Shown here piece by piece: positions 7,094-20,699 of a DNA stretch of 64,000 nt. Source of the stretch: Actinomadura rubteroloni (GTDB lineage Bacteria > Actinomycetota > Actinomycetes > Streptosporangiales > Streptosporangiaceae); NCBI RefSeq assembly GCF_002911665.1, contig NZ_MTBP01000002.1, positions 434,001 to 498,000 of the forward strand, read 5' to 3'. Position numbers and translations under genes: made by a program. Positions within the stretch are counted from its first letter, which is position 1. Every line of letters starts with the position of its first letter. Below the pieces are notes generated by a model. The model was not told the DNA's origin, did no database searches, and saw nothing but the letters and a program-made list of their open reading frames with translations.

Positions 7094-7621
7094 TTACAAC
7101 ATCGCCTGGCCCGGGACGCCGAGCGTGTCCTCGACCAGGGAGACGAACACGTCGGCGTCCTGGACGAGTTCGTCGGCCTCGCGCGGCGTCACCGCGCGCG
7201 GCAGGCCGGCCTCGGCGGCGGCGCGCTTGTCCGCGCCCGCCGCGAAGAACGCGGCCCATTCGCGCAGCGCCGGGTCGGCCTCGGGCAGCAGCACCCACAC
7301 GCTGCGCGGCCGTCCGCGCCGATGGGTCTCCAGGGGCTCGGACGCGGCGAGCACGGCCGCCGCCGCGCGCAGCGCCGCCATGTGGGCGTGGACGTACCGG
7401 AGCGCGGGCGAGGTCGCCTCGGCGGCCTCGGCGAGGCTCCGCCGCGCGGCGTGCAACTGGCCGACGGCCGTGTGCGCCGGACGGGGGGCCGGGACGGGAC
7501 GGGGGCGTGGACTCGGCGTGGGACTCGGCGCGGGGCTCGGCGTCGCACTCGGCGCCGGTCCGGGCCGCGCGGGCGCGTGGGCGCCTCGGGTCACGGTCGT
7601 GTCGTGTGTCGTTCCGGACAT
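7094..7621 (-). CDS. SAV_6107-type HEPN domain protein
   Basis: The 175-residue product has a Pro/Ala/Ser-rich disordered N terminus (about residues 10-45). A helical domain follows that resembles the actinobacterial SAV_6107 HEPN family: helix HTAVGQLHAARRSLAEAAE, then RGRPRSVWVLLPEADPALREWAAFFAAGADKR cut by a turn, then AVTPREADELVQDA. The ATG at 7621 has a clear GGAGG site; the open frame upstream has none. HEPN folds often act in RNA cleavage or nucleic-acid conflict systems, but this family's role is not established. A perfect SOS-type box 138 bases upstream suggests DNA-damage control. Confidence 0.75.
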   Translation of the reverse strand: MSGTTHDTTVTRGAHAPARPGPAPSATPSPAPSPTPSPRPRPVPAPRPAHTAVGQLHAARRSLAEAAEATSPALRYVHAHMAALRAAAAVLAASEPLETHRRGRPRSVWVLLPEADPALREWAAFFAAGADKRAAAEAGLPRAVTPREADELVQDADVFVSLVEDTLGVPGQAML

Positions 7622-7759
7622 GGTGCCTCCTTCCGGGCGCGGGCGCCCGGCCGGGCAGGAAGCTTCCCCTCTCCCTGCCCGGCCGGCCGGGTCCACCGCC
7701 GTCGCGCATACGGCGGCGGACCCGCTGGCCCTGGCGCGATCCGCGAGTATCGCGCCACA

Positions 7760-7775
7760 TCGAACAAAAGTTCGA
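7760..7775. promoter_or_regulatory. SOS (LexA) box
   Basis: TCGAAC-AAAA-GTTCGA is a perfect match to the actinobacterial LexA consensus TCGAAC-N4-GTTCGA, extended by one more symmetric base on each side. It lies between the left end of the tail module and the HEPN gene and is best placed to control the latter. Only sequence evidence is available. Confidence 0.75.
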
Positions 7776-7814
7776 TGCCACACCAGTTAACCGCCCCCGC
7801 GACGATTCGTCAAT

Positions 7815-7899: not shown

Positions 7900-8130
7900 T
7901 CACTCGTACCGCGGAACCCGCCGCACGACACCCGCACCGAGCAGCACACGCCCCGCAACCGCCCACCGCCGCTCCAGCGCTCGCGCGACGACGTAGTACA
8001 CGGCCCCGAACACCCCGGTCAGCACCTCGCCCACCGGCCCGGCGGGCAGATCCAACCCCGCTCGGGCCGCCAGCGAGATCAGCACCCCGGCCAGGAACGG
8101 CACGACCGTGCGAACGACACTGTCCAACAT
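7900..8130 (-). CDS. Small two-helix membrane protein, holin-like
   Basis: A 76-residue protein with two predicted membrane segments (TVVPFLAGVLISLAARAGL and VGEVLTGVFGAVYYVVARAL) and a basic C terminus. Small proteins of this build are common at the end of actinophage tail modules and are often called holins, though no assay-based family assignment can be made from sequence alone. ATG at 8130 has a GGAGG site nine bases upstream. It is the last tail-module gene in the direction of transcription. Confidence 0.65.
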   Translation of the reverse strand: MLDSVVRTVVPFLAGVLISLAARAGLDLPAGPVGEVLTGVFGAVYYVVARALERRWAVAGRVLLGAGVVRRVPRYE

Positions 8131-8514: not shown

Positions 8515-9828
8515 TCAGGTCCACGTGTCGCCCTGCCAGACGCGGACGTCGGCCTGCGCGGACGCTCCCACGCGCACGGTCGGCCGCGCCCACACGTCGT
8601 CGTCCGTCCACACCTTGGTGGTGGTGTCCGGTTCGGGGCGGAAGCCGGTCGCGTCGAACGTCTTCGCCAGTTGGGCGAGCACCTGTCCCGTGTGGTCGCG
8701 GCCGGTGAACTCGACCTTGATCGTGTCCCCGGCGTCCGTGACCTGGACATGGCCGAACTGCCCGGTGCCGGCCGGCGCGACGATCGGCCCGATCTGCCAC
8801 GTCCCCGACCCGCTGGACGTCTGGTCGAGCGGCGCGGCCACGAGTTCGACCGCGCCGATCCGCGAGTTGCGGCCATCGTCGGCGGCGATGGCGTGCATGT
8901 CCGCGCTGAGCACGACCATCTTGGCGCCCAGCCCGTAGGCGTTGATGAACGCGTTGATCTCGGCGAACTCGGTCTGGTAGTCGCCCCACCGGTCGCCGCC
9001 GGCCGCCGACATCCGGTGCGGGATGGACTCGCAGAGGAACACGACGGGCTCGGCGCACGTCTGCAGCAGGTCCAGGAACCACCGCTTCTGCTCGGTGCCG
9101 AGCATGGTCTTGCTCGCGCCCTCCGCATCCGTCGTGTTCGAACGGAACGTCCGGGTGTCGAGCAGGATGAACCGGCACCGTCCGACCACCCAGGTGCAGT
9201 ACAGGCCCGAGGCGGGCAGCGGGTAGAACGTCCCGTGCGCCCGCATCGACTCCTGCGCCGCCGCCGCGCCGACCGATCCCGACCAGCCGAACCGTCCGGT
9301 GAAATCGTGGTTGTCCCAGGTGGCGACCGTCGGCACCTCGCGGAGGAGCCGGCTGTACCGAGCGGTCGAGTACGCGTCCTCGAACGCCGCGTCGTACTGC
9401 GTCCGGTCCGCGGAGTCGATGTCCGAGTAGTGGATGTCGCCCATGAACAGGAACTGCAGCGGATTCATGGAGCGGATCTGGTCGTAGACGACGTGATTGG
9501 ACGACCTGATGCGGTCCCCGGCGAAGCAGAACCCGAAGTCCGCCTGCGCGCCCGGCACCGGCAGCGTCCGCAGCCGGCCCTGGTCGGCGAGGACGGCGCC
9601 GTCCGCCTCGACGGCCCAGTAGTACGCGGTCGCCGCGGCCAGGCCCGACACCTCGTGCTTGCTGAGCCCGCGCCCGTCGGGGGCCTGCGCGGACGACGCC
9701 ACCGGGTTCGCGAGGTCCGCGCTCGCCGAGACGAGCACGCGAACGCTCGCCGCGCCGGTCGTCCGGACGGTGAAGCGGGCCGCGGACTCGGTCGTCGCCC
9801 CGACCCAGCCGTAGGAGAGCCCGGCCAT
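8515..9828 (-). CDS. PhoD-like metallophosphoesterase in the tail module
   Basis: A 437-residue protein. Residues about 1-90 form a fibronectin-III-like N-terminal domain typical of PhoD phosphatases. Residues about 95-330 carry the metallophosphatase motifs: FAGDRI, MGDIHYSDID, TWDNHDF and the late LSADMHAI. The C-terminal 100 residues look like a beta-rich appendage ending VWQGDTWT. There is no signal peptide or Tat motif, unlike secreted PhoD enzymes, and the ATG directly follows the stop of the preceding tail gene (TAGATG). This points to a virion-borne phosphatase or phosphodiesterase, perhaps acting on teichoic acid or nucleic acid at the cell surface. The substrate is inferred. Confidence 0.75.
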   Translation of the reverse strand: MAGLSYGWVGATTESAARFTVRTTGAASVRVLVSASADLANPVASSAQAPDGRGLSKHEVSGLAAATAYYWAVEADGAVLADQGRLRTLPVPGAQADFGFCFAGDRIRSSNHVVYDQIRSMNPLQFLFMGDIHYSDIDSADRTQYDAAFEDAYSTARYSRLLREVPTVATWDNHDFTGRFGWSGSVGAAAAQESMRAHGTFYPLPASGLYCTWVVGRCRFILLDTRTFRSNTTDAEGASKTMLGTEQKRWFLDLLQTCAEPVVFLCESIPHRMSAAGGDRWGDYQTEFAEINAFINAYGLGAKMVVLSADMHAIAADDGRNSRIGAVELVAAPLDQTSSGSGTWQIGPIVAPAGTGQFGHVQVTDAGDTIKVEFTGRDHTGQVLAQLAKTFDATGFRPEPDTTTKVWTDDDVWARPTVRVGASAQADVRVWQGDTWT

Positions 9829-10932
9829 CTAGTTCTGCCTCCGCGTCAGGCCGATCTGGATGCCGAAGCCGTTGTCCGAACCGGGCTGGAACGACGCCGT
9901 CTTGACCCCGGACGGCCCGGCGACCGGCTGCGCGAAGTCGCAGACCAGCACCGAGGGGACCTGACTGGAGCCCGTCCCGGTCTGGTAGAGCCGCCGCGTG
10001 GTGCCCGCCGGGTCGGTGACGGCCGTCGGGACGCCGGGCGACTTCTCCCCGAAGACCGACAGGACGAGCACGTCCGGGACCGCCGTGTTGATCGACGGCG
10101 CGTCGCTGTTGTTGCCCGTGCCCGAGCGGATCGCGAACGCGCCCACCTGCGGCGTGCTCGCCGCGTTCGCGTACGCCACGATTCCCGCCGACACGCGGGC
10201 CGCGAAGGACGTCTGGGTCGCCGTCGCGAAGCCCCACGACGGCGCCGTGTCGCCCGCCGCGTAGACCTTGCCGTAGATCGCGATGCGCGTGTCCCCGCCG
10301 AACTGCTGGGACGTCTGCAGGACCGTCCAGCCGTCCGGCTGCGCGGACAGCAGTTCGCCGCTGCCGGACGCGAACACGACGGCGGCCACGAGGTAGTCCC
10401 CCGGCACCAGGCCGTTGGGCAGCGCGCAGGTCACCGTGGACGCCACGGTGAACACGCCGTTGGCCGCGCGGAACGCGATCGGGTTCCCGCCTGTCGGGGC
10501 GGACGTGTCGAACCAGACGTCGCCCGTGCCGGGGTTGCCGGGGGCCGTCGGGGACGCCGTGAGCCGTCCGACGCCCGACAGCCTGTCCTCCAGGGCGGCC
10601 AGCCGCGTCGCGACCTCGCCCACTTCGGCGCCGAGGTCGGTCGCGGTGATGAGCCGCCGCGCGCCCGAGCCGTCCAGCGACGCCGAGGCCCACATCGCGC
10701 GGACGCCGTCGGGCGCGGTGCCGAACGCGGGGATGGCGCCGGACGCGTCCGAGGTGACCGCGTCGTTCGGGATCGCGGTGCCCGTCGTGTCGAGGAGCCC
10801 GGTGATCTGCACGCCGCCGGTCGCCGCCGACCAGAACGTCACCGCGACGTTCGGCGCGAGCCGCAGTTCACCCGATTCTCCTTGCGTCACCACATAGTCG
10901 GCGATGCCTCCGCCGAACGAATGCCTCGCCAT
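9829..10932 (-). CDS. Minor tail / tail-fibre-like protein
   Basis: A 367-residue protein. The N-terminal segment (VAVTFWSAATGGVQITGLLDTTGTAI) resembles attachment regions of phage tail fibres. A short coiled coil follows (EVATRLAALEDRLSG, about residues 105-120), then a linker with NPGTGDVWFDT and a beta-rich C-terminal domain. Such a build is typical of a trimeric fibre. It lies between a terminator on its upstream side and the PhoD-like gene. No receptor can be inferred. Confidence 0.6.
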   Translation of the reverse strand: MARHSFGGGIADYVVTQGESGELRLAPNVAVTFWSAATGGVQITGLLDTTGTAIPNDAVTSDASGAIPAFGTAPDGVRAMWASASLDGSGARRLITATDLGAEVGEVATRLAALEDRLSGVGRLTASPTAPGNPGTGDVWFDTSAPTGGNPIAFRAANGVFTVASTVTCALPNGLVPGDYLVAAVVFASGSGELLSAQPDGWTVLQTSQQFGGDTRIAIYGKVYAAGDTAPSWGFATATQTSFAARVSAGIVAYANAASTPQVGAFAIRSGTGNNSDAPSINTAVPDVLVLSVFGEKSPGVPTAVTDPAGTTRRLYQTGTGSSQVPSVLVCDFAQPVAGPSGVKTASFQPGSDNGFGIQIGLTRRQN

Positions 10933-11029: not shown

Positions 11030-11977
11030 TCAGGCGCCGAGCCAGGTGTTCGACAGGTAGACGTGGTGGCCGATCGGAATGTCGGCGGCGACGTGCTGGA
11101 GCAGGACTTCGCCTGTGCTCGGGTCCACGTAAAGGCGTCCCGGCACCACGTAACCGCCCTTGGTGCCGTTGTCGCAGACCACCGCCGGCGAATGCCGGAA
11201 GGCGGGCATGAATTCTCGCCGGGGAAGCACGGCGAGAAGCGTGCCGTCCGCGTCGGATTTGCCGTAGACGCTGTTGACGCGCCGCATCGCGCCCGCCAGG
11301 TAGACGACGCCGTTGACCCGGCGGACCTTCACCTGCCAGCTCGTCTCCCAGACGGTCGGCCACGCGGGCTGGAGGTCGACCCAGCCGGTGTCCTCGGCGA
11401 CGACGCGCCAGTTCGTCCCGCCCGTGTTCCCGACCCAGCGCGCGGTGTCGCTCTCGTAGACGAGCTGTCCCATCGCGGGCTTGTCGGGACGGTTTCCGGA
11501 GAAACTCGGGGCCACACCGGCGCCGGCGAACTCGCGGGCGTCCGTCACGTCGGCGGTCCCGATCGTCGTGGCGTTCGCGCCGACGCGGATCGTGGCGAGC
11601 GGCAGCTCCCACACACCGCCCGGCGTCCGGACGGGGTCGGGCGCCTTCAGCGTGCCGGGCGTGCCCTGCCGGACCTGGAACGTCACGGCGTCGGCCGCCG
11701 GATCGGCGTGCAGCACCGCCAGGTCCGTGCGCTGCTGCGCGGACGCGGCGGCGACCGTCGCCGTCTCCCCCGTGCCCGACGACTCGTACCAGTAGCCGCC
11801 GACGTGGGCGAACCCGGGCGACATCTTCACCGTCATGCCGCCGGCCGGCGCGACCTTGCACGCCGTGTCGGACGGGTTGCCGCGGACGCCGTCGAGCTGG
11901 AACCCCTGGAACAGGCGGGCCAGCTCGATCTCCGTCGCGATCGGCTTGGTCTCGAACACTCCAGACTTCTCGGTCAT
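11030..11977 (-). CDS. Tail tip / baseplate-like protein
   Basis: A 315-residue protein with the N-terminal pattern of actinophage tip proteins (VFETKPIATEIELARLFQGFQLDGV, then MTVKMSPGFAHVGGYWYESSG). A middle region follows with repeated short beta segments, including VYESDTARWVGNTGGTNWRVV, which resembles a tail-fibre repeat. The C terminus is a beta-rich domain. It starts one base after the Gp37-like gene stop (TGAGATG). The role in host contact is inferred from position and build. Confidence 0.65.
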   Translation of the reverse strand: MTEKSGVFETKPIATEIELARLFQGFQLDGVRGNPSDTACKVAPAGGMTVKMSPGFAHVGGYWYESSGTGETATVAAASAQQRTDLAVLHADPAADAVTFQVRQGTPGTLKAPDPVRTPGGVWELPLATIRVGANATTIGTADVTDAREFAGAGVAPSFSGNRPDKPAMGQLVYESDTARWVGNTGGTNWRVVAEDTGWVDLQPAWPTVWETSWQVKVRRVNGVVYLAGAMRRVNSVYGKSDADGTLLAVLPRREFMPAFRHSPAVVCDNGTKGGYVVPGRLYVDPSTGEVLLQHVAADIPIGHHVYLSNTWLGA

Positions 11978-11978
11978 C

Positions 11979-13133
11979 TCATCTCCTCGTCTGCATGGTG
12001 TGGACCTTGCGGCGCAGCTCGGCGAACCGCCGGTAGATGCGCGGCGACTCCTCGTCGTCGCCGATGACGGGCGTGACGATCTCTCCGTCGTCGGAGTTGC
12101 GCGTGTAGCGGACCTCGCGGACGACGTCGCTCCACGGGATCCCGTCGATCTCGATCGTGACCGTGTCGCCCTTGCGGTAGTCGCGGCCGAGGACGACGGC
12201 GTCGGTGTCGATCGGCTCGAAGGTGATGCTGGCCTTGCCGCGCGCCTCCTCGAACCGTCCTGCCGCCATCTGCGCGGGGGTCAGCGAGTCCTGGCCGTCG
12301 CCGGAGTCGGTGCCGTCGAGGAACTCCTCGATCCGCAGGCCGGGCCAGGCGGCGTCGCTCTCCTCGATGCCGTAGAACTTGCGCTGCGTGTCGCCCTCCT
12401 TGTCGCCGATGACGAGGAAGGTGGCCTCGGGCGGGTTCAGCGTGTACTGGTACGAGCGCAGGTTCCCGAGGTCGATGGAGAACCGCGCCGCCGCGGACTG
12501 GTCGCGCGGCTGGTAGACGCCGAACTCCAACGCGCCGTCCCAGGTCTGGACGACGTCGAAGCCGACGGCGCCGCGCGTGGCGACGTCGACCATCTCGTCC
12601 CAGAGCACGCCGAACCTGGACTTGACGCCCGTGTTGGCGCCGCGTCCGCCGTCCGTGCCGAGCCGCAGCCCGGGGACCTGGCGCGACGGCCGTGCGTTCG
12701 GGCCGGCATGGTCGGTCACGAGCTTGCGCAGGACGGTCTCGGCCTTCGCCGGCTGCGCGACGACGTAGTTCGCCGTGCTGTAGAGGGTGCCGGACGCGAC
12801 ACAGTCCACCGCCGGGTTGGGATAGACCAGCCGCGTCAGCCAGCCCTTGTCGCAAGGGCCGGACACGGTGAGAGTGCCGTGGCCGCCGTCGTCCACGTTG
12901 TGCTCGCGCTCGACCAGGCGAGTCGGACCCGAGAAGGCGATCTGGCCGTTCCGGACGAACACGATCCCGGCGTTGTCGCGCAGCAGCGCGGCGTCGTGGG
13001 ACGCGGCGTCCACAGTGATCGTCCACGAGCCGAGCGCGAGGTGCCGGTCGATGATCTCCATCGTCGCCTCGCCCGCGACCTCGCCGACGATTCTGCGCTG
13101 CGCGTCGCGTACGAGGATCTGCCAGCCGCTCAC
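11979..13133 (-). CDS. Siphovirus Gp37-like tail protein
   Basis: A 384-residue protein resembling the ReqiPepy6 Gp37-like family of siphovirus tail proteins. Typical features are the opening GWQILVRDAQRRIVGEV, the FSGPTRLVEREHN segment, and a C-terminal region with LGRDYRKGDTVTIEIDGIPWSDVVREVRYT. The GTG at 13131-13133 starts just before the stop of the distal-tail gene (four-base overlap). The in-frame extension upstream overlaps that gene and is not real. It probably forms part of the tail tip. Confidence 0.8.
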   Translation of the reverse strand: MSGWQILVRDAQRRIVGEVAGEATMEIIDRHLALGSWTITVDAASHDAALLRDNAGIVFVRNGQIAFSGPTRLVEREHNVDDGGHGTLTVSGPCDKGWLTRLVYPNPAVDCVASGTLYSTANYVVAQPAKAETVLRKLVTDHAGPNARPSRQVPGLRLGTDGGRGANTGVKSRFGVLWDEMVDVATRGAVGFDVVQTWDGALEFGVYQPRDQSAAARFSIDLGNLRSYQYTLNPPEATFLVIGDKEGDTQRKFYGIEESDAAWPGLRIEEFLDGTDSGDGQDSLTPAQMAAGRFEEARGKASITFEPIDTDAVVLGRDYRKGDTVTIEIDGIPWSDVVREVRYTRNSDDGEIVTPVIGDDEESPRIYRRFAELRRKVHTMQTRR

Positions 13134-14125
13134 GCCGTCCTCGCCGCGAGCGTCTGCGGTGCGGCGGTCGGGTACGCCGTCTTGTAAAGCGGGACGAACG
13201 TCAGTTGGACGCTCGTCGTATCGCCCGCACCGCCGAGATTCATGTCCACGACATTCGCGCCCGGCGCGAGCGGCCACAGATCGGACGCGGGTTCCAGGGA
13301 CGGCCACAGATTGTCCGTGCCGTTCAGGACGATCGTCCGGCGGCGCGGACGCGTGTCCACCACGACGACATCGGTGGCGGAAAGCGCGCGGTTGAGCTTC
13401 CACGTCAGCCCGAGCGTGCGGTTCACGAAACTCGCGCCCGCCGCGACGGGGCCGTGGATCGTCCAACGCGGATACGACCGGGTGTCACCGGGGCAGTCGA
13501 CGGGCACGGCCGTCCCGATGACCTGCGCCGTCCGGACCTTCAGGTACTTCGGCGGGCCGATCGGCAGGAACGTCTCCGTGGTCTGTCCGATACTCCATAG
13601 CCGCGACGTTTCGACGCCCTGCCAGTAAGGTTCGGAGGCGTGGAGCGTGATGCCGAACTTCGCCCAGTTGAGGCCCGCCTCCTCCTTTCCCTCGGCGCCT
13701 TCCATGCCCTCGGTGTAGTACGCGCGGATGGACCGCGGCTCCGCACCGGGCTCGGCGACCGTCAGCACCCCTTCGCCGCCGCCGTTCACCGCCAGCGGGT
13801 CGAAGACGGACGCGAGCATCGCGCGCTTGGCGAGCGCGTCCGCCCGGTCGTTCCCGTAGATGGCGATGGGCAGGAAGATCTCGCGCGGCTTGGCGCGGAC
13901 GCCGGTGACGACGTCGCCGTCCAGCGCCCCCGATTCCCGCAGGTAGAGCTGGTACTGCGGCATTCCGAGGCCCTTGGACCCGGCCGTGAGCAAGAACCCG
14001 CTCCGCCAGTTCGACAGAATGGTCTCGACGCCCGAACGGGACGTCCAGGTGACGGTCGCGACCTCGCGTTCCGCCGAGACCGGAGGGCCGGTGGGAGCAT
14101 GTGGCTCCGTGTACAGAATCGGCAC
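13130..14125 (-). CDS. Distal tail (Dit-like) protein
   Basis: A 331-residue protein with the layout of phage distal tail proteins, which link the tail tube to the tip: VTWTSRSGVETILSNW at the N terminus, a middle domain with HASEPYWQG, and a C-terminal galectin-like region (PRWTIHGPVAAGASFVNRTLG, then IVLNGTDNLWPSLEPASDLWPL). It lies between the tape measure gene and the Gp37-like gene, the standard siphovirus order. Confidence 0.75.
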   Translation of the reverse strand: MPILYTEPHAPTGPPVSAEREVATVTWTSRSGVETILSNWRSGFLLTAGSKGLGMPQYQLYLRESGALDGDVVTGVRAKPREIFLPIAIYGNDRADALAKRAMLASVFDPLAVNGGGEGVLTVAEPGAEPRSIRAYYTEGMEGAEGKEEAGLNWAKFGITLHASEPYWQGVETSRLWSIGQTTETFLPIGPPKYLKVRTAQVIGTAVPVDCPGDTRSYPRWTIHGPVAAGASFVNRTLGLTWKLNRALSATDVVVVDTRPRRRTIVLNGTDNLWPSLEPASDLWPLAPGANVVDMNLGGAGDTTSVQLTFVPLYKTAYPTAAPQTLAARTA

Positions 14126-14128
14126 GAT

Positions 14129-15397
14129 CTACCTCACAGAGTTGAGGATTTCCCAGCTCCGCAGCCGGGACGCGAACTGTCGGCTGGTCTCCTTGGGATC
14201 CTTGACGGCCCCGTGGAAGTGGAATTCATAGGCGCCGGCACTCTTACCGCGCCCGGCGGACGCCGCCGACCCGGCCACGGCCTTGCCGAGCACAGACCCC
14301 TGAGCGCGCACCGCCTGCGTCTTCGGGACGTCGACGAGCTTGCCGAGCGACTTGTCGACGTGCTTCTTGCTGCCGTCGATCCCGAGCGCCATACCCTCGC
14401 CGACGCCCTCACCCAGCGACATCATGACCAGCGACGGCGAGTTGATCCCGAGCGCCTTCTTGACGAACCCTGGAATCTTGTCGGTGACGGTGTTCTTGAT
14501 GACGTCGATGATGTGGCCCGCCATCGACTTTATGCCGTTGACGAACCCCATGATGAGGTCCTTGCCCTTGTTGTAGAGCGTCTTGCCGACGTTCCCGAGC
14601 CCACTGAGGATCTTGCCGGGCAGCCCCCGAAAGAACCCGACGAGCGCCTGGAACTTGTCGACGACGTAATCCTTGGCCTTGATCGCGCCGTCTTTGATGT
14701 TCTTCCAGTACTTCGTGATCACATAGACGGCGATACCGAACGGCCCGGTGATGATCGCGAGCAGCAGCGGCCAGTTTTTTTTGATCCAGTCCCAGACGAA
14801 CTTGGCCGCATCCTTCACCCACTTGATCGAGTTCGACACGATCTTCATGGCCTGCGACACGATCTTCTGGAACGTCTTCGACTTCATGACGCTCTCGACC
14901 AGCTTCTCCAAGAACGGCTGGAGCAGCATCAAGATGAGCCCGGCCGGTCCGAGCGCCGCTTTAAACCCCGCGCCAAGCCCCTTGAGCCCCGTCCCGGCGA
15001 TCTTCCCCGCCGGACCGATCTTCTTCGCTCCCGTCGCGGCTTTTTCCAGGTTCTTCCCGCTCTTGGTCGCCTCCGTCCCTGCTTTCGTCACGTCCCGTTG
15101 GAAGCCGGCCATGGCCATGCCGCCCTGTGCGATATTCCGCGCGAAGGACGTCAGACCAGTGCCAGCACTTCTCACGCGCGCCCCGAGCGTCCCCACAGCG
15201 GTCCCAGCCGAGGTCGCCTGCGTTCGCACCCGGGTCGCCCCGGCTGCGGCCTGACTGGCCTTCGCCTGCATCCCTGCCAGTCCGGAGCCCGCGCGCCCGG
15301 TAGCGCCTTGAAGACGCCCGAAGGAGCCGGCCGCACCGTTCGCAGCAGCACCAGCCCGACCAAGCGCCAGCGTAACTTTATTCAGAATTTGTGCCAT
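14129..15397 (-). CDS. Tail tape measure protein, short
   Basis: Sets tail length and helps DNA or effector passage in siphoviruses. The 422-residue product has an Ala/Gly/Thr-rich helical N terminus (about residues 1-110), two hydrophobic segments (AALGPAGLILMLLQPFLEKLV and WPLLLAIITGPFGIAVYVI) and a C-terminal part with the tape-measure-like NSPSLVMMSLGEGVGEGMALGI motif. With about 0.15 nm per residue the tail would be near 60 nm, short for a siphovirus. Its chaperone genes are 3.6 kb away instead of adjacent. Confidence 0.85.
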   Translation of the reverse strand: MAQILNKVTLALGRAGAAANGAAGSFGRLQGATGRAGSGLAGMQAKASQAAAGATRVRTQATSAGTAVGTLGARVRSAGTGLTSFARNIAQGGMAMAGFQRDVTKAGTEATKSGKNLEKAATGAKKIGPAGKIAGTGLKGLGAGFKAALGPAGLILMLLQPFLEKLVESVMKSKTFQKIVSQAMKIVSNSIKWVKDAAKFVWDWIKKNWPLLLAIITGPFGIAVYVITKYWKNIKDGAIKAKDYVVDKFQALVGFFRGLPGKILSGLGNVGKTLYNKGKDLIMGFVNGIKSMAGHIIDVIKNTVTDKIPGFVKKALGINSPSLVMMSLGEGVGEGMALGIDGSKKHVDKSLGKLVDVPKTQAVRAQGSVLGKAVAGSAASAGRGKSAGAYEFHFHGAVKDPKETSRQFASRLRSWEILNSVR

Positions 15398-15446
15398 CGA
15401 GAATCAAGCCTTTTCCTGAAAGGAGCAACCTATTCGGCGAACCGGA

Positions 15447-16055
15447 TCAGACAAGCGCCTGGAAGTCTCTGATGAGATATGAAAGCTCAACCTGCAGGCG
15501 CCTGACGTCCGTCTCCGCCCTTCGGATCTGACCTACCATTCCTTCATCCCGGGCACCCCGGCCGCCATTCCCCCCGGAGTTACGACCCAGCAATCTCTCA
15601 TTTATCCGACCGACATTCCTTTCAAGAACCCCGACCTTCTCCTCCAGCCTGTCTTCGTCTGTCTTGAAAAAGTCGACCCGCTTCCTGAGCCAGCCGAACG
15701 CGTCAATCTCAAAGCTTTTTATTGGCTTGATAACGGTTTCAAATGCACTGAATTCGGATTTGAGGCCGGTGATCTCGCCCTTGATCCCCGTAATTTCGCC
15801 TTTGATTCCCGTAGTTTCTACCGGTTTGGACAGTTCGGGCTTGGCGAGAATCTGTTCGATCAAAGATTTTTGTGCCTGATTTTGGCTATTTTGCTGCTGA
15901 TTGCGCGTCTGCTGGGCCTGGTTGTGAGCCCACTGCTGCTGGTTGCGCGTCTGCTGGGCAAGGTTATCCGCCCATTGCTGCGAATTTCTGACTTGTTGCT
16001 GTCGATTATCCAACCATTGCCGCTGATTGTCCTTTTTCTGTTCGTCATTTTTCAT
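15447..16055 (-). CDS. Gln/Asn-rich coiled-coil protein of unknown function
   Basis: A 202-residue protein not assigned to a family. Residues about 10-62 are a Gln/Asn-rich tract built from a repeated unit (QQWADNLAQQTRNQ, QQWAHNQAQQTRNQ). Residues about 80-100 repeat GIKGEIT and GLKSEF. The C-terminal half is charged and coiled-coil-like (EDRLEEKVGVLERNVGRINERL). Its codon use is more AT-rich than its neighbours, suggesting a later arrival. It lies just upstream of the tape measure gene on the same strand and could be a virion component, scaffold, or surface protein. Confidence 0.55.
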   Translation of the reverse strand: MKNDEQKKDNQRQWLDNRQQQVRNSQQWADNLAQQTRNQQQWAHNQAQQTRNQQQNSQNQAQKSLIEQILAKPELSKPVETTGIKGEITGIKGEITGLKSEFSAFETVIKPIKSFEIDAFGWLRKRVDFFKTDEDRLEEKVGVLERNVGRINERLLGRNSGGNGGRGARDEGMVGQIRRAETDVRRLQVELSYLIRDFQALV

Positions 16056-16192
16056 ATTTTTCCCACAAAAGTTCTTCGAATCCGGCTAAGACTTTTCCTT
16101 CAAACGCGGCCTTACACCGACGGGCCCCATCAATACCCCAGAGGAGCGGGCTCACACTCTTGGCGATAAGAGCGCCACAAACCGCCGCTGCG

Positions 16193-16201
16193 TGCTATAA
16201 T
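16193..16201 (+). promoter_or_regulatory. Extended -10 promoter
   Basis: TGC-TATAAT is a perfect -10 hexamer with an extended TGN element, rare in this GC-rich DNA. No good -35 is visible. It points at the small secreted-protein gene starting at 16265. Confidence 0.55.
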
Positions 16202-16264
16202 GACCCTTACCACACAAATAGAACCAGTACGCCTGAATATAAATTCGACTCAGCGGATAAAGGT

Positions 16265-16678
16265 ATGCGTAAAGCAATATTCGGAACGGCCCTCTTCGCC
16301 CTACCGTGGGTCCTCCTAGTGATTGTTCTCCTTGTTGAGGATCATAGATTCACTGGCGGATATGAAACAGCCGCAACATACTTTCGATCAGTTGGGGCAG
16401 GCGACGGCCCCACCGCATGCTCGGTATTAACTCTCAGCATGAGAAGTACCATTGGCGGCCAGAACGGATTCGACGGCTGCGTCAGCGCGGTTGTACGCCA
16501 GTACACGGAACTGGGAGAACGGGAGCGCGCCCAACTGGTGCGTACGTCAGCGGCCGTAGCGCGAAGGAAGTCTGGCTCCAACCCGCTCATCGTCGACATC
16601 GATGCCAACCCCCTCGGGATAACCCGGATGTCTTTGACGAAGCTGTCGGGAAAGTGGCTCATTGCCGATATTAGTTAG
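16265..16678 (+). CDS. Small membrane-anchored protein with NTF2-like build
   Basis: A 137-residue protein with one N-terminal membrane segment (FGTALFALPWVLLVIVLLV). An extracellular domain follows, of the type seen in actinobacterial NTF2-like or DUF4878-like secreted proteins: AATYFRSVGAGDGPTACSVL, two Cys, and a final strand KLSGKWLIADIS. ATG at 16265 is chosen because the membrane helix follows it and a perfect -10 lies 64 bases upstream. An in-frame ATG at 16160 precedes that promoter. Opposite in strand to the tail genes and AT-richer; possibly an inserted gene. Confidence 0.55.
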   Translation: MRKAIFGTALFALPWVLLVIVLLVEDHRFTGGYETAATYFRSVGAGDGPTACSVLTLSMRSTIGGQNGFDGCVSAVVRQYTELGERERAQLVRTSAAVARRKSGSNPLIVDIDANPLGITRMSLTKLSGKWLIADIS

Positions 16679-16756
16679 ACAGCCGGATTGCCAAAGATCC
16701 CCTTGCGGACCACATCGCAGCCGACGCGTCGCTCGGCAGAGAATGCTGCCGTGCTG

Positions 16757-16794: not shown

Positions 16795-16992
16795 TCACTG
16801 GCGGGTGGCGCCTCTTTGGCGGGTTGCGCGTTCTGCTTTGAGGAGGGCGAGCTCGGTTACGAAGATTCGGCGGTTGATGCGGAGGGCGGGGAGGTGGCCT
16901 CGGTGGATCCACTGGCGGATTGTTGCGGGGGCCACGCCTACTCGGGTTGCTGCCTGGGTCACCGTCAGGTAGGTGCGTGCCAGGTCTGTCAT
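16795..16992 (-). CDS. Excisionase-family helix-turn-helix protein
   Basis: A 65-residue protein that is almost entirely one MerR/excisionase-type winged helix (LTVTQAATRVGVAPATIRQWIHRGHL, then PALRINRRIFVTELALL). The ATG at 16990-16992 overlaps the stop of the zinc-ribbon gene by four bases, so the two are co-translated. It may be a small regulator or a recombination directionality factor, but no integrase is present in the window. Confidence 0.75.
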   Translation of the reverse strand: MTDLARTYLTVTQAATRVGVAPATIRQWIHRGHLPALRINRRIFVTELALLKAERATRQRGATRQ

Positions 16993-17618
16993 GACGCGCT
17001 CCGGAGGGAGTGGCCTTGTTGTGCGGGTGTGGCGGGGGCTCTCCAGCCGCAGGCTTGGCAGTGGATCTCGTCGGCGGTCGGGTCGTGTTTCAGGGTGAGG
17101 AGGTCGCACTCGGGGCACGGGTGGGTGAGTTTGCGTGGGGGGCCGTCCAGGGAGGCTCGGGCTCTTAGGCGGCGGTGCAGGGAGAGGATCTCTCGGCCGA
17201 AGTCTTTTGCGCCGTCGAACGTTAGGAGGCCGTCCAGGTGGGTGGTCAGCCAGGCGACGCAGGCGGAGAGGGTGGGGGCGTAGCGGCCTCGGCGGGGGCG
17301 AAGGGCGAAGTTCTGGGATTCGCGGTAGGCGTCTTCCCAGGTCAGGAGCGTTTGGAGGAGTTCGTCCAGGTCGTCTACCGCGGGGGACGGGGACGGGCGG
17401 CCGGGGGTGCCGGAGACGCGTTCGGACAGGCCGGTCGCTCGGCGGTTCAAGGACGTGCCGACACAGGCAGCCAGGTCGTCCAGTTCGGTGAGCCGGGCGC
17501 GCAGCAGGGAGCTACAGGCCGTGCACCAGATGGGGTCGCCGGCGGCGGGCGGCGGGGTCGTGGGACGGCGGCGCGAGGCGCGGTGTGGAGCGTTGCACGG
17601 ACCCGGACATACGGACAT
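16989..17618 (-). CDS. Zinc-ribbon protein of unknown function
   Basis: A 209-residue protein with four Cys pairs: CPGPC and CTAC in the first 35 residues, CPEC and CQAC in the last 45. The middle is helical and carries no recognised enzyme motif. The C-terminal pair order (CPECDLLTLKHDPTADEIHCQAC) is a classic zinc ribbon. It has a GAGGAG site before the ATG at 17618. Position between WhiB and an HTH protein suggests a nucleic-acid-related role. Confidence 0.65.
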   Translation of the reverse strand: MSVCPGPCNAPHRASRRRPTTPPPAAGDPIWCTACSSLLRARLTELDDLAACVGTSLNRRATGLSERVSGTPGRPSPSPAVDDLDELLQTLLTWEDAYRESQNFALRPRRGRYAPTLSACVAWLTTHLDGLLTFDGAKDFGREILSLHRRLRARASLDGPPRKLTHPCPECDLLTLKHDPTADEIHCQACGWRAPATPAQQGHSLRSAS

Positions 17619-17687: not shown

Positions 17688-17978
17688 TCAGGCGGGGACG
17701 TCGTAGCGGCGGGCGGCGATGCGGGCGCGGACGCGGACGGCCATCCGTTCGCGTTCGGTCGTCCCGCCCCAGACGCCTTCGAGGGACTCGTCGGCGAGGG
17801 CCTGGTCGAGGCAGGCGGCGCGCACGGGGCACGCGGCGCAGATCTGCTTCGCCTCGGCGATGGCGGTGCGCTGGCCCGCCAGGGCGAAGAACAGGTCGGG
17901 ATCGGCGTCTCGGCACCGGGCGCGTTCGTGCCAGGGCACGGCGGTCTCGAACATCACCGGTCTCCCTGCAAGAGGCAT
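17688..17978 (-). CDS. WhiB-family iron-sulfur regulator
   Basis: WhiB proteins bind a [4Fe-4S] cluster and contact the principal sigma factor. The 96-residue product has the four conserved Cys (RCRDADPDLFF, then ICAACPVRAAC), the G-V-W-G-G turn (LEGVWGGTTERER) and a basic C terminus for DNA contact. An internal ATG at 17954 also has a good ribosome site and would give 88 residues. It lies in a leftward regulator group inside the tail module; actinophage-borne WhiB proteins are known, so it could regulate the element or the host. Confidence 0.9.
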   Translation of the reverse strand: MPLAGRPVMFETAVPWHERARCRDADPDLFFALAGQRTAIAEAKQICAACPVRAACLDQALADESLEGVWGGTTERERMAVRVRARIAARRYDVPA

Positions 17979-18019: not shown

Positions 18020-18238
18020 TTAACTGACGGTTATTGACGCCGGGTCGACCGCCAGGGCGCGGGCCAGGCCGGCGGCGACCCCGGCGGAGGCGCGCGGCCG
18101 CCGTCCCGTCTCCAACATCGACAGGTACGACGTGTCGATCCCGGCGAGGACCGCGAGATCGGCTTGGCGGAGCCCCATCCCCAGCCGAAGCGCGCGCAGC
18201 TCGGCTCCGTTCACCCGGACAAGATCATGACGTTTCAT
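18020..18238 (-). CDS. XRE-family helix-turn-helix regulator (small)
   Basis: A 72-residue protein that is a single XRE helix-turn-helix (LRALRLGMGLRQADLAVLAGIDTSYLSMLETGRR). ATG at 18238 is used; an in-frame TTG six codons earlier is less likely. It is divergent from a second XRE gene at 18445 across a 206-base region with a CRP-like palindrome. The arrangement resembles a phage repressor pair. Confidence 0.8.
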   Translation of the reverse strand: MKRHDLVRVNGAELRALRLGMGLRQADLAVLAGIDTSYLSMLETGRRPRASAGVAAGLARALAVDPASITVS

Positions 18239-18444: not shown

Positions 18445-18945
18445 ATGTCCCTGCAGAGACACGCGGCCATCGGAAACGCGGTGGCGACCCGCCGCGTTCG
18501 CCTCGGTCTGCGTCAGAGCGATCTGGCACGCGAAGCCGGCGTGTCCGAGACCACGATCCGGAACATCGAGGCCGGCCGCATCGGCGGCCGGCCCACCAAG
18601 TGGCCCCTGGTCGAACGCGCGCTCGGCTGGCCGCCCGGCTCGTTCGAGACGCTGAGCGCGGGCGGCCAGCCGCCCGAGAGCCTGCCGCCCGTATCCCCCG
18701 GGACGCCCGGCGGCGACTGGACGGACCGCCTGCCGCGCCGGATCCGGGACGAACTGGCCGAGCACGATCTCTTCGACTCCGACGTGGTGGAGCTCGGCGA
18801 GGGGTTGCGCGTGGTCGTGCTCGCGCTGGAGACCGCGCCGCCCGCCACCGACGGGACCGGGCGGCGCCGCCGGGCCGTGCGCTGGGAGAGCGTCCGGCAC
18901 CGGCTGCGCGCCGCGGCGGAGGAGGAGGAGAACCTCACGCAATAG
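18445..18945 (+). CDS. XRE-family helix-turn-helix regulator
   Basis: A 166-residue protein with an N-terminal XRE domain (VATRRVRLGLRQSDLAREAGVSETTIRNIEAGRI, about residues 10-45). The C-terminal part is acidic and of unknown fold (RRIRDELAEHDLFDSDVVELGEGLRVVVLALE). The start at 18445 is chosen because the domain follows at once; the open frame begins 51 bases earlier. It is the only plus-strand regulator of the island and a candidate repressor of the tail genes or of its divergent partner. Confidence 0.75.
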   Translation: MSLQRHAAIGNAVATRRVRLGLRQSDLAREAGVSETTIRNIEAGRIGGRPTKWPLVERALGWPPGSFETLSAGGQPPESLPPVSPGTPGGDWTDRLPRRIRDELAEHDLFDSDVVELGEGLRVVVLALETAPPATDGTGRRRRAVRWESVRHRLRAAAEEEENLTQ

Positions 18946-18958
18946 AACATATGTTCGA
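18943..18958. promoter_or_regulatory. SOS-like box
   Basis: TAGAAC-ATAT-GTTCGA differs from the LexA consensus TCGAAC-N4-GTTCGA at one position. It overlaps the stop codon of the XRE gene and precedes no same-strand gene, so its target is unclear. Confidence 0.5.
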
Positions 18959-19019: not shown

Positions 19020-19427
19020 CTAAAGGTCGGCGAAGAACCAGGCGAGTTCCTGCTCTTCGGCCGACGCCCCGGGGGTCTCGTCCTCCTCGTCCGCCACACC
19101 GGGCCGGGGCACCGGGACGGGCGGATCCGGCGGGCTCTCCCCCTCGGCCGTGTGCGCGGACGTGAACAGCCAGTTGCCGATCGCCAGGTGGTCGATCACC
19201 GACGCGAGCAGGTGCTCGCCGAGGCCCCACGCCGACTCCTCGCCGTGGAGCTCCCGCGCGAAGGCGCTGTCGCGCGGCAGGTGCCGGAGGAGCACCCACA
19301 CCCGCCGCGCCGACAGCGTCCCGCGGTGGTGATCGAGCAGGTCGACCCCGTAGTACCGGAGCAGATCGGCCTCGATCGCCTCGGCGTGCTCGGTCAGGAG
19401 CTCGTCGAGGCCGAGTCTTCCCCCGGG
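19020..19427 (-). CDS. Tail assembly chaperone, frameshift-extension (T-like) part
   Basis: About 133 residues (GLDELLTEHAEAIEADLLRYYG, later VIDHLAIGNWLFTSAH, ending EEQELAWFFADL), lying in the -1 frame relative to the short chaperone gene at 19394-19705. No start codon or ribosome site opens this part independently. In siphoviruses such a region is made as a C-terminal extension of the short chaperone by programmed -1 frameshifting. The fusion (GT-like) protein guides tail assembly on the tape measure protein. Confidence 0.75.
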   Translation of the reverse strand, partial: PGGRLGLDELLTEHAEAIEADLLRYYGVDLLDHHRGTLSARRVWVLLRHLPRDSAFARELHGEESAWGLGEHLLASVIDHLAIGNWLFTSAHTAEGESPPDPPVPVPRPGVADEEDETPGASAEEQELAWFFADL

Positions 19428-19705
19428 AACATGCCCGACTCCTGGCCGTACGCCTCGACCAGCGCCTGGACGTCCTGGACGCTGACGCGGTGCCGCTGGA
19501 ACCGCTCGTACTGCTCGGGCCCGAGCAGCAGCCGCAGCATGCCCGCGACGTCGGACGCGTCGAGGTCGCCCAGCTCGCGCACGACCTCGTGGGGCAGCTC
19601 GATCGGCAGCGCGTACGCCTCGCCGTCGATCTCGAACTCCCACTCCCGGCCGAGCGCCTCGAGCCGCTGGGCGCGGGCCGCGTTGACGCTGTACCGGCCG
19701 CTCAC
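19394..19705 (-). CDS. Tail assembly chaperone, short (G-like) form
   Basis: A 103-residue protein (EFEIDGEAYALPIELPHEVVRELGDL, LGPEQYERFQRHRVSVQDVQALVEAYG) with the build of actinophage tail assembly chaperones. It starts at a GTG that overlaps the tail tube stop by three bases. The frame closes shortly after a CCCGGGG heptamer, where a -1 slip joins it to the downstream frame. It acts during tail assembly and is not expected in the mature tail. Confidence 0.8.
   Translation of the reverse strand: MSGRYSVNAARAQRLEALGREWEFEIDGEAYALPIELPHEVVRELGDLDASDVAGMLRLLLGPEQYERFQRHRVSVQDVQALVEAYGQESGMFPGEDSASTSS
19421..19427 (-). other. Programmed -1 frameshift site
   Basis: On the minus strand the codons CCG GGG form the canonical slippery heptamer C-CCG-GGG. 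After slipping they read CCC GGG, with both tRNAs still paired, and continue as GGA AGA CTC into the T-like frame. The run GGGGGAA at 19418-19424 overlaps it and is an alternative slip site. Confidence 0.7.
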
Positions 19706-20253
19706 TTGGCCATCCAGCTCGCGAGCGGCAGCGACGGGACGGCGTCGGACGCGATGGCGTTGATCGTGACGCCGAGCTTCACCGGCGCCGTCTTGGCGAA
19801 CTGCACCTCGTCGGTCTCGGTGACGACGGCGCGCGGGATGTAGAAGCGGTTGACGCTCGCGCCGTCGGTGAACTGCACGGCGAGCGCGAACTCGACCGGC
19901 GTCGGGCTCGCGGAGATGTCGTAGCGCAGGACGCCGTCGGTGGGGGTCAGCGGGTGCTGGCCGTCGCCCATGAAGAACGGGAGGGTGTCGGCGTTGATCT
20001 GCATGAGCTGGAACTTGACGGTCAGGTCCCGGTCGCTCTGCAGGAACCGGACCGCCGCCGAGGACTGCCACACGTCGACGGGGTCGAGCTTGTCCTTCTT
20101 CGTGAACTTGATGCCGTCGTTGGTGGTGTAGCCGAGGTCCTTCCAGTCCGCCGCGAGAGGGGCGTCCGGAACGGCGAGGTCGGTGTTCTTCGGCGCGATG
20201 AAGACATGGCCGGTCCCGGCCACGCGGATCTCGGTCGCGTTCCATCCAGACAT
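19702..20253 (-). CDS. Major tail (tail tube) protein
   Basis: A 183-residue protein with the signature of siphovirus tail tube proteins: an early GTGHVFIAPKNTDLA turn, WKDLGYTTNDGIKFTKKDK, a VRFLQSDRDLTVKFQLMQIN beta segment, and the C-terminal EVQFAKTAPVKLGVTINAI. Hexamer rings of this protein would form a non-contractile tube. It sits between the tail-end protein gene and the chaperones, the usual order. No sheath protein was found, so the tail is of the flexible siphovirus type. Confidence 0.85.
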   Translation of the reverse strand: MSGWNATEIRVAGTGHVFIAPKNTDLAVPDAPLAADWKDLGYTTNDGIKFTKKDKLDPVDVWQSSAAVRFLQSDRDLTVKFQLMQINADTLPFFMGDGQHPLTPTDGVLRYDISASPTPVEFALAVQFTDGASVNRFYIPRAVVTETDEVQFAKTAPVKLGVTINAIASDAVPSLPLASWMAK

Positions 20254-20267
20254 GTTTACTCCTCTGA

Positions 20268-20699
20268 TTACTGCAAATGGATGAGCAGTCGGACGTTCAG
20301 GCAGTAGCGGGTGAACTCCGGGTGATTGCGGTCGGTCAGCCGACGCAGGCCGCGGAGCCCTTCGTCCTCGGACACGTCGGCCACGGTGAATCCGGAGAAT
20401 GGCGTCCTGGTCAGTCCCGGAAGCAGGGCGCGGACGGTGCGCATCACCGTGTGCGCGGCCGTGACCGACGGCCCGTAGGTCTCGATCCGGAGCCAGCCCT
20501 CGTCGAGGACCTCGTCCTCCCGGTAGCCGCCGCCGTCCCTGATCAGCACGACGAGCGAGGTCGTCCCGTCGAACGCGGCCGGGCGCGCCGGCTCGACCGG
20601 GACGCCGGCCAGCTCGGGCCGCGCGGCCAGGTATCCGCCGACGGCCGCCTCGATGTCGGGGAAGACCGCCGCCACGGGGACCTCCGTCGATTCGGTCAC
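20268..20699 (-). CDS. Tail terminator / tail-completion-like protein
   Basis: A 143-residue protein resembling head-tail joining or tail-terminator proteins (VFPDIEAAVGGYLAARPELAG, VLIRDGGGYREDEVLDEGWLRIETYG, ending YCLNVRLLIHL). The GTG at 20697-20699 has a perfect AAAGGAGGT site seven bases away. It is the first tail gene in the direction of transcription; all genes that would lie before it in a phage (terminase, portal, capsid, adaptors) are missing. The open frame extends upstream past a terminator hairpin and is not coding there. Confidence 0.75.
   Translation of the reverse strand: MTESTEVPVAAVFPDIEAAVGGYLAARPELAGVPVEPARPAAFDGTTSLVVLIRDGGGYREDEVLDEGWLRIETYGPSVTAAHTVMRTVRALLPGLTRTPFSGFTVADVSEDEGLRGLRRLTDRNHPEFTRYCLNVRLLIHLQ

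Follow-up and report, generated by a model that had tools for sequence, protein, structure and literature searches.

What does a PhoD-like phosphatase do when its gene directly follows a fibre gene in a bacterial chromosome, and does its product belong to a phage tail? The question is raised by a stretch of 64,000 nucleotides from Actinomadura rubteroloni (contig NZ_MTBP01000002.1, positions 434,001 to 498,000), here termed the window and numbered from its first letter. A sequence-only reading of this DNA had placed a full metallophosphatase at 8515-9828, its strand not given, and had suggested that on a tail tip it could open or bind the target cell wall. The gene itself proved to be real:

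8515-9828, minus strand: PhoD-like metallophosphatase, 437 aa (Pfam PF09423; PHROG 13624; AlphaFold2 pLDDT 91; best PDB match 2yeq)

The open reading frame begins with an ATG that abuts the stop codon of the fibre gene at 9829-10932 (minus strand), giving the TAGATG spacing that had been described. The three motifs named in the reading are all present (GDIHYSDID from residue 130, NHDF at 173-176 and SADMHA at 308-313), and it was also right that there is no signal peptide: the chain begins MAGLSYGWVGATTES, and residues 3-10 form a beta strand of the N-terminal domain (pLDDT 97-99). The frame matches Pfam PhoD (PF09423, E=1.3e-14, 54.5 bits against a curated cut-off of 27) and PHROG 13624 'hydrolase' (228 bits); its PHROG matches are phage 'hydrolase' and 'phosphodiesterase' families of 651-1066 positions, of which PhoD is one part. 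An AlphaFold2 model, for which 60 sequences served as input, reached a pLDDT of 91 and a pTM of 0.89, and in a Foldseek search its top PDB match was PhoD of Bacillus subtilis (2yeq, E=3e-26), with purple acid phosphatases next. The protein is made up of a PhoD_N/FNIII-like domain (residues 1-90), a metallophosphatase core (about 95-400) and a W-rich C-terminus of 37 residues (401-437) that AlphaFold2 predicts to be disordered. Orthologues are 94, 72 and 62-64% identical, with dN/dS values of 0.18-0.43. The profile matches, the quality of the model, the 2yeq match and these slowly changing orthologues together show that the frame is not a chance one.

PhoD is the last tail gene of a cassette that occupies about 7.9-20.7 kb of the window, almost entirely on the minus strand. 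The other members, in the order of minus-strand reading, are:

20268-20699, minus strand: tail terminator (phrog_123)
19702-20253, minus strand: major tail tube protein (PF25681 Phage_TTP_17, E=1e-47; phrog_117)
19394-19705, minus strand: tail assembly chaperone G (phrog_10551)
19020-19643, minus strand: tail assembly chaperone extension GT, reached by a -1 frameshift from G (phrog_3656, phrog_5813, phrog_393)
18445-18945, plus strand, opposite to the rest: HTH regulator (PF13560)
18020-18214, minus strand: HTH regulator (HTH_31, profile match)
17688-17954, minus strand: WhiB-family regulator (PF02467, E=5e-24)
16989-17618, minus strand: zinc-ribbon-like protein of DNA-binding type, kept in all five cassettes (phrog_1467/1568)
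16795-17118, minus strand: HTH regulator of MerR/excisionase type (PF12728, phrog_2474)
15447-16055, minus strand: Q/N-rich coiled-coil-like protein in a low-GC variable segment, not conserved between species
14129-15397, minus strand: tape measure protein, short at 422 aa (phrog_5448, 58 and 305, tail length tape measure protein)
13130-14125, minus strand: distal tail protein Dit (PF22768 SPP1_Dit, phrog_106/33)
11979-13133, minus strand: Tal-like tail-tip protein, Sipho_Gp37 (PF14594, E=2e-44; phrog_538 minor tail protein)
11030-11977, minus strand: tail-tip or fibre-like structural protein (phrog_17342; phrog_6779 tail protein)
9829-10932, minus strand: fibre or receptor-binding-type protein with an N-terminal anchor (phrog_27064), a short helix and a C-terminal domain found fused with PhoD in phage homologues
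8189-8437, minus strand: small protein whose C-terminal part has a single hydrophobic segment, the next gene after PhoD (phrog_5225; 64-99% identity in five species)
7900-8130, minus strand: small membrane protein, resembling holins only in length and hydrophobicity (phrog_10742, unknown function)

By Pfam and PHROG the set for a non-contractile tail is complete (terminator, tube, G/GT, tape measure, Dit, Tal and fibres), and no contractile-tail protein was found among the tail proteins identified in the cassette. At the usual 0.15 nm per residue, the 422-aa tape measure would predict a tail about 60 nm long. Chromosomal genes lie on both sides. A BldD-like gene marks one flank; the remaining neighbours we take, from our own assignment by sequence, to be pyrimidine genes on the BldD-like side and ybaK/arsC/metF on the other.

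The head, by contrast with the tail, appears to be missing, a point that the sequence-only reading had overlooked. Searches of the whole genome for portal (PF04860, PF05133), HK97 capsid (PF05065) and TerL_ATPase (PF03354) returned no match, and this absence is strong but not complete, as four families do not cover all head proteins. Head proteins of phages P1312 and Rowlf likewise found no match in the five cassettes (see below), whilst the same queries recovered portals in the related prophages G026, G205, G241 and G320. The cassette contains no integrase, replication or packaging genes, and no convincing tRNA attachment sites or junction repeats were seen at its sites. Judged by its genes, the locus is a headless, non-contractile tail cassette and not an ordinary phage, and it looks like a domesticated headless tail rather than the tail of an active phage. 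Neither an endolysin nor a recognisable lysis cassette was found at the window's locus or at those of G016 and G003, which counts against reading it as a tailocin; the only lysis-type candidates of the window's locus are its two small membrane proteins. A PG_binding_1 protein, a candidate endolysin, follows the holin-like gene in G074 (L035:3552-4310) and G028 (L032:8289-9047), and is absent from the cassettes of the window, G016 and G003.

The cassette was found in 5 of the 65 genomes searched in the genus, representing five Actinomadura species; relatives of the window's genome include A. rayongensis and A. pelletieri. It occupies two sites. In three species it lies between a SAV_6107-like HEPN gene (7094-7783, minus strand) and ybaK, genes that are adjacent in nine relatives lacking the cassette; the HEPN gene is core, being present in 62 of the 65 genomes. 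At the second site, in G028 and G074, it lies next to an SbcCD-type pair, and three genomes checked that lack the cassette retain the genes of that side. Synonymous divergence between the window and G074 is 0.4-1.2 within the cassette and 0.36-0.69 in flanking core genes; being similar to or somewhat above that of its neighbours, it argues that the cassette is old and not a recent arrival. Against A. rayongensis (DSM 102126, an environmental type strain), whose PhoD is 94% identical to the window's, dN/dS is 0.175 for PhoD, 0.056 for Dit, 0.114 for Tal and 0.031 for G, and 0.03-0.42 for most other cassette genes, the exception being the small merR-like gene (0.85). The tail frames are open in all five species. 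On these comparisons, the cassette is old, conserved and under purifying selection. The slippery GGGGGAAG of the G/GT pair is invariant in the five species, and the dual-coding stretch that follows is nearly unchanged, whilst third positions ahead of GGGGGAAG vary; this pattern would be hard to explain otherwise, and tails are therefore presumably still assembled. A low-GC variable segment lies between the regulators and the tape measure gene (15400-16700 in the window; L034:8949-15244; an equivalent in L032/L033); DUF4429-SHOCT paralogues form an array within it, on the opposite strand, in G028 and G074.

From the position of the genes, we infer that the cassette is controlled by its own WhiB and HTH proteins. 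A perfect palindrome of the actinobacterial LexA/SOS-box form, TCGAACAAAAGTTCGA, is found at 7760-7775, before the HEPN gene. It was considered as a sign of possible SOS control of the cassette, but the box belongs to the HEPN gene and is found there genus-wide, even in genomes that lack the cassette. A weaker LexA-box-like palindrome, TAGAACATATGTTCGA, lies at 18943-18958, at the stop of the plus-strand HTH gene and between convergent genes; its arms are kept with an altered spacer in G016 and G003, and it is missing in G028 and G074.

Whether PhoD belongs to the tail tip was approached through its viral relatives. A scan of viral contigs with the single PhoD protein as query gave no matches; with an alignment of 13 sequences, 99 relatives were found. 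In phages and prophages alike, homologues come after Dit, Tal and fibre genes. The order Dit-Tal-fibre-fibre-PhoD of the window recurs in five IMG/VR contigs (L081, L083, L085, L092 and L119), and three others (L111, L113 and L134) have the same order but at most one recognised fibre gene. In the Thermobifida phage P1312 a tape measure gene is followed by a tail protein gene and then by PhoD, and in the Actinomadura prophages G011, G026 and G084 PhoD comes after a fibre gene. At least 29 of 80 PhoD-bearing IMG/VR contigs carry a tail gene recognised by sequence on the same strand within the flank, rising to 45 of 80 when long tape-measure-like frames are counted by a weaker composition test. 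The sequence-only reading had named homologues lying always outside tail operons as evidence against its proposal; the IMG/VR contigs and P1312 show that they do not. PHROG assignments of the genes directly upstream of the homologues are scattered and give no single figure.

There is also a tie to the fibre. The C-terminal domain of the fibre encoded at 9829-10932 is found within the PhoD polypeptide in 17 of 80 viral loci, N-terminal to PhoD in nearly all of them. Elsewhere it was found in 7 of about 2,600 other frames, and four of these seven are PhoD's immediate upstream neighbour (Fisher p ~1e-21 for enrichment in PhoD frames, a value that ignores the kinship of the relatives). On the strength of these fusions, the cassette keeps as two coupled genes what many phages have as one fibre-PhoD protein. 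An AlphaFold2 model of the fibre was too poor for use (pLDDT 41). In G003, a second copy of the fibre gene, 57% identical, lies downstream of PhoD (L030:6586-7668). Two points count against the tail reading: some phage homologues, that of Streptomyces phage Daubenski for one, lie outside the classic tail block, and the P1312 homologue has no virion mass-spectrometry coverage value in part of the published table (PMC4569894). Taken as a whole, gene order and fusion make it very probable that the PhoD-like protein is part of the tail particle.

The state of the metal site bears on what such a protein could do. The metal complement of B. subtilis PhoD is one Fe3+ and two Ca2+; its C180, D265, N271, N272 and D436 mutants are inactive, its D207 and D266 mutants nearly so, and a single alanine mutation of either Asn271 or Asn272 abolishes pNPP activity (PMC4223295). 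In the alignment with that enzyme (in which the numbering of Y210 and H438 is itself inferred), D207, Y210, D265, D436 and H438 are kept as D131, Y134, D172, D310 and H312, the Fe3+ ligand Cys180 is replaced by Asp105, and Asp266 is Asn (Asn173 in the window) in all five cassette proteins. The second-calcium-site pair Asn271/Asn272 is absent (Gly178/Arg179), and the alignment has no Asn or Asp nearby save Asn179 in G028. The 'full metallophosphatase' of the sequence-only reading therefore stands as to fold and the five shared ligands, and fails as to the substituted ones; a fully intact classical PhoD site is ruled out by the alignment. Loss of metal ligands, which had been named beforehand as a sign against the reading, has thus partly occurred, yet the Asp replacement is recurrent and coordinated. 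At the position of C180 and the one before D436, 51 of 71 relatives have Cys/Gly and 19 have Asp/Ala, Asp being always paired with Ala. On the tree of loci L080-L159 the Cys-Asp and Gly-Ala switches (residues 105 and 309) each changed eight times, all coincident, with four independent pairs on strongly supported branches. Asp is the usual iron ligand at the Cys180-equivalent position in purple acid phosphatases. We read the Asp/Ala form, in view of this coupled recurrence and of the purple acid phosphatases, as a maintained alternative iron site, whilst, with the Asn pair gone, activity is doubtful. The prospect that the protein is catalytically active is rated slightly better than even; that its substrate is a wall phosphodiester polymer is plausible, at somewhat below even confidence.

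That doubt gives rise to an alternative in which PhoD, though part of the tail, only binds phosphodiester polymers, as a lectin-like pseudo-enzyme. The loss of the Asn pair together with Asp266->Asn in all five cassette proteins speaks for it and counts against an active enzyme, and there is a phage relative (L120) that has lost several ligands and still sits beside fibre genes. The iron-site residues D105, D131, Y134 and H312, with D172 and D310, are however present in all five species, and the change of Cys to Asp recurs with Gly to Ala in other phages in which the remainder of the site is retained; eight coincident changes are unlike random decay and argue for a maintained site. A pure binding module is accordingly considered rather unlikely. 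The L120 relative (L120:7218-9290), which lacks the Cys180, Tyr210, Asp436 and His438 equivalents, is a likely pseudo-enzyme.

Other explanations concern the locus as a whole. It could be a defective prophage in neutral decay with PhoD as a relic, as the missing head, packaging, replication and integration genes, the short tape measure and the variable low-GC segment splitting the tail block might suggest; against this, the tail frames are all open in five species, dN/dS for the closest species is mostly 0.03-0.4, the frameshift signal is kept, and the same loss of head genes with the same regulators is seen at two sites, which makes neutral decay improbable. An excisionase-type HTH protein and two insertion sites would also fit a locus that lives off phages as a satellite or parasite, supplying tails or diverting them, and is no weapon, an idea made highly improbable by the lack of integrase, replication and packaging genes, by the lack of a tRNA at the sites and by a location that is fixed in three species. 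The PhoD family consists usually of secreted scavengers (PMC4223295), so PhoD might be a host-derived phosphate scavenger that lies beside tail genes by chance. This we regard as scarcely credible: the protein lacks a signal peptide and is translationally coupled to the fibre, outside the cassette it is closest to viral or prophage proteins, whilst other Actinomadura PhoDs match only at E ~1e-4 to 1e-7, and in phages PhoD is fused with the fibre domain.

Set beside known proteins, the Actinomadura PhoD shares with B. subtilis PhoD (2yeq; PMC4223295) the fold (E=3e-26, TM 0.71 on query), the PhoD_N domain and metallophosphatase core, and the ligands D207, Y210, D265, D436 and H438. It differs in its 20% identity by structural alignment, in Cys180->Asp, Asp266->Asn and the loss of Asn271/272, in lacking a signal peptide and, in the model, the covering C-terminal helix. 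Phage PhoD-type 'hydrolases' (phrog_13624, phrog_24476; P1312 ORF22; Streptomyces phages such as Daubenski) are 28-38% identical over the whole domain; many lie in tail modules, and P1312 also has the Asp/Ala form. They usually carry fibre or carbohydrate-binding regions, N- or C-terminal, in the same polypeptide, whereas the cassette has PhoD as a separate, fibre-coupled gene in a headless locus. The authors of the P1312 study suggest DNA degradation as the role of its homologue (PMC4569894). Tail-borne teichoic-acid phosphodiesterases are already known with a different fold: the baseplate glycerophosphodiesterase of Lactobacillus delbrueckii phage Ld17 and the GDPD tail lysins of enterococcal phages (PMC10194240) share the notion of a phosphodiesterase carried on the tail and directed at wall teichoic acid, but differ in fold (GDPD) and genes, so that they compare in working only. 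In the open-access full text searched, phage PhoD-type proteins are annotated, and none was found to have been studied experimentally as a tail component; nor was such a locus reported under PhoD on tails, Actinomadura prophages or tailocins, or actinomycete non-contractile tailocins.

F-type tailocins, to judge by excerpts of PMC10811719, are rare (F-pyocin, monocin and rhizoviticin), and the same excerpts list few Gram-positive tailocins, all from Bacillota (diffocin, monocin, Brevibacillus). The cassette resembles the F-type described there in its headless non-contractile tail gene set with regulators and in its prophage derivation, and differs in that three of the five loci have no recognised lysis enzyme, in its WhiB regulator and in PhoD at the tip. 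No F-type example from Actinomycetota was found in the open-access full text searched. The contractile injection systems of Streptomyces (PMC10066040, PMC8505568) are likewise domesticated phage-tail loci in an actinomycete, but they are contractile, and none of the tail proteins identified in the cassette is of contractile type.

The interpretation that we favour, with moderate confidence, is that the frame encodes the enzyme or the binding module that sits on the tip of a headless, non-contractile tail, domesticated and of F-type-tailocin-like kind, in a group of Actinomadura species. That the locus makes a headless tail particle is, from its gene content, likely. PhoD would dock on the C-terminal domain of the fibre at the distal tail end; on contact it would bind, and probably hydrolyse, teichoic-acid-type phosphodiester polymers of the target wall; and the tip would then reach the membrane, where the tail would depolarise the target cell. 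F-type tailocins are thought to depolarise the target cell. More tentatively, the cassette might be an Actinomycetota non-contractile tailocin under WhiB and host regulation, its tip a re-modelled PhoD (with an Asp-type iron site and without the second calcium site) that cleaves or holds phosphodiester polymers of the wall, and it might serve to kill close relatives or have a developmental role like the contractile systems of Streptomyces.

What the cell may make, then, is a tail particle lacking a head, with which it attacks neighbouring cells at their phosphate-containing walls. With a conserved headless tail of non-contractile type in actinomycetes, the range of tailocins would grow to include a major group of soil bacteria and antibiotic producers, and the enzyme at its tip would explain, concretely and in a way open to testing, how such a tail can get through a thick wall with abundant phosphodiester polymers. 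The coupled Cys-Asp/Gly-Ala switch offers, on a smaller scale, a testable point in the evolution of the metal site between PhoD and the purple acid phosphatases.
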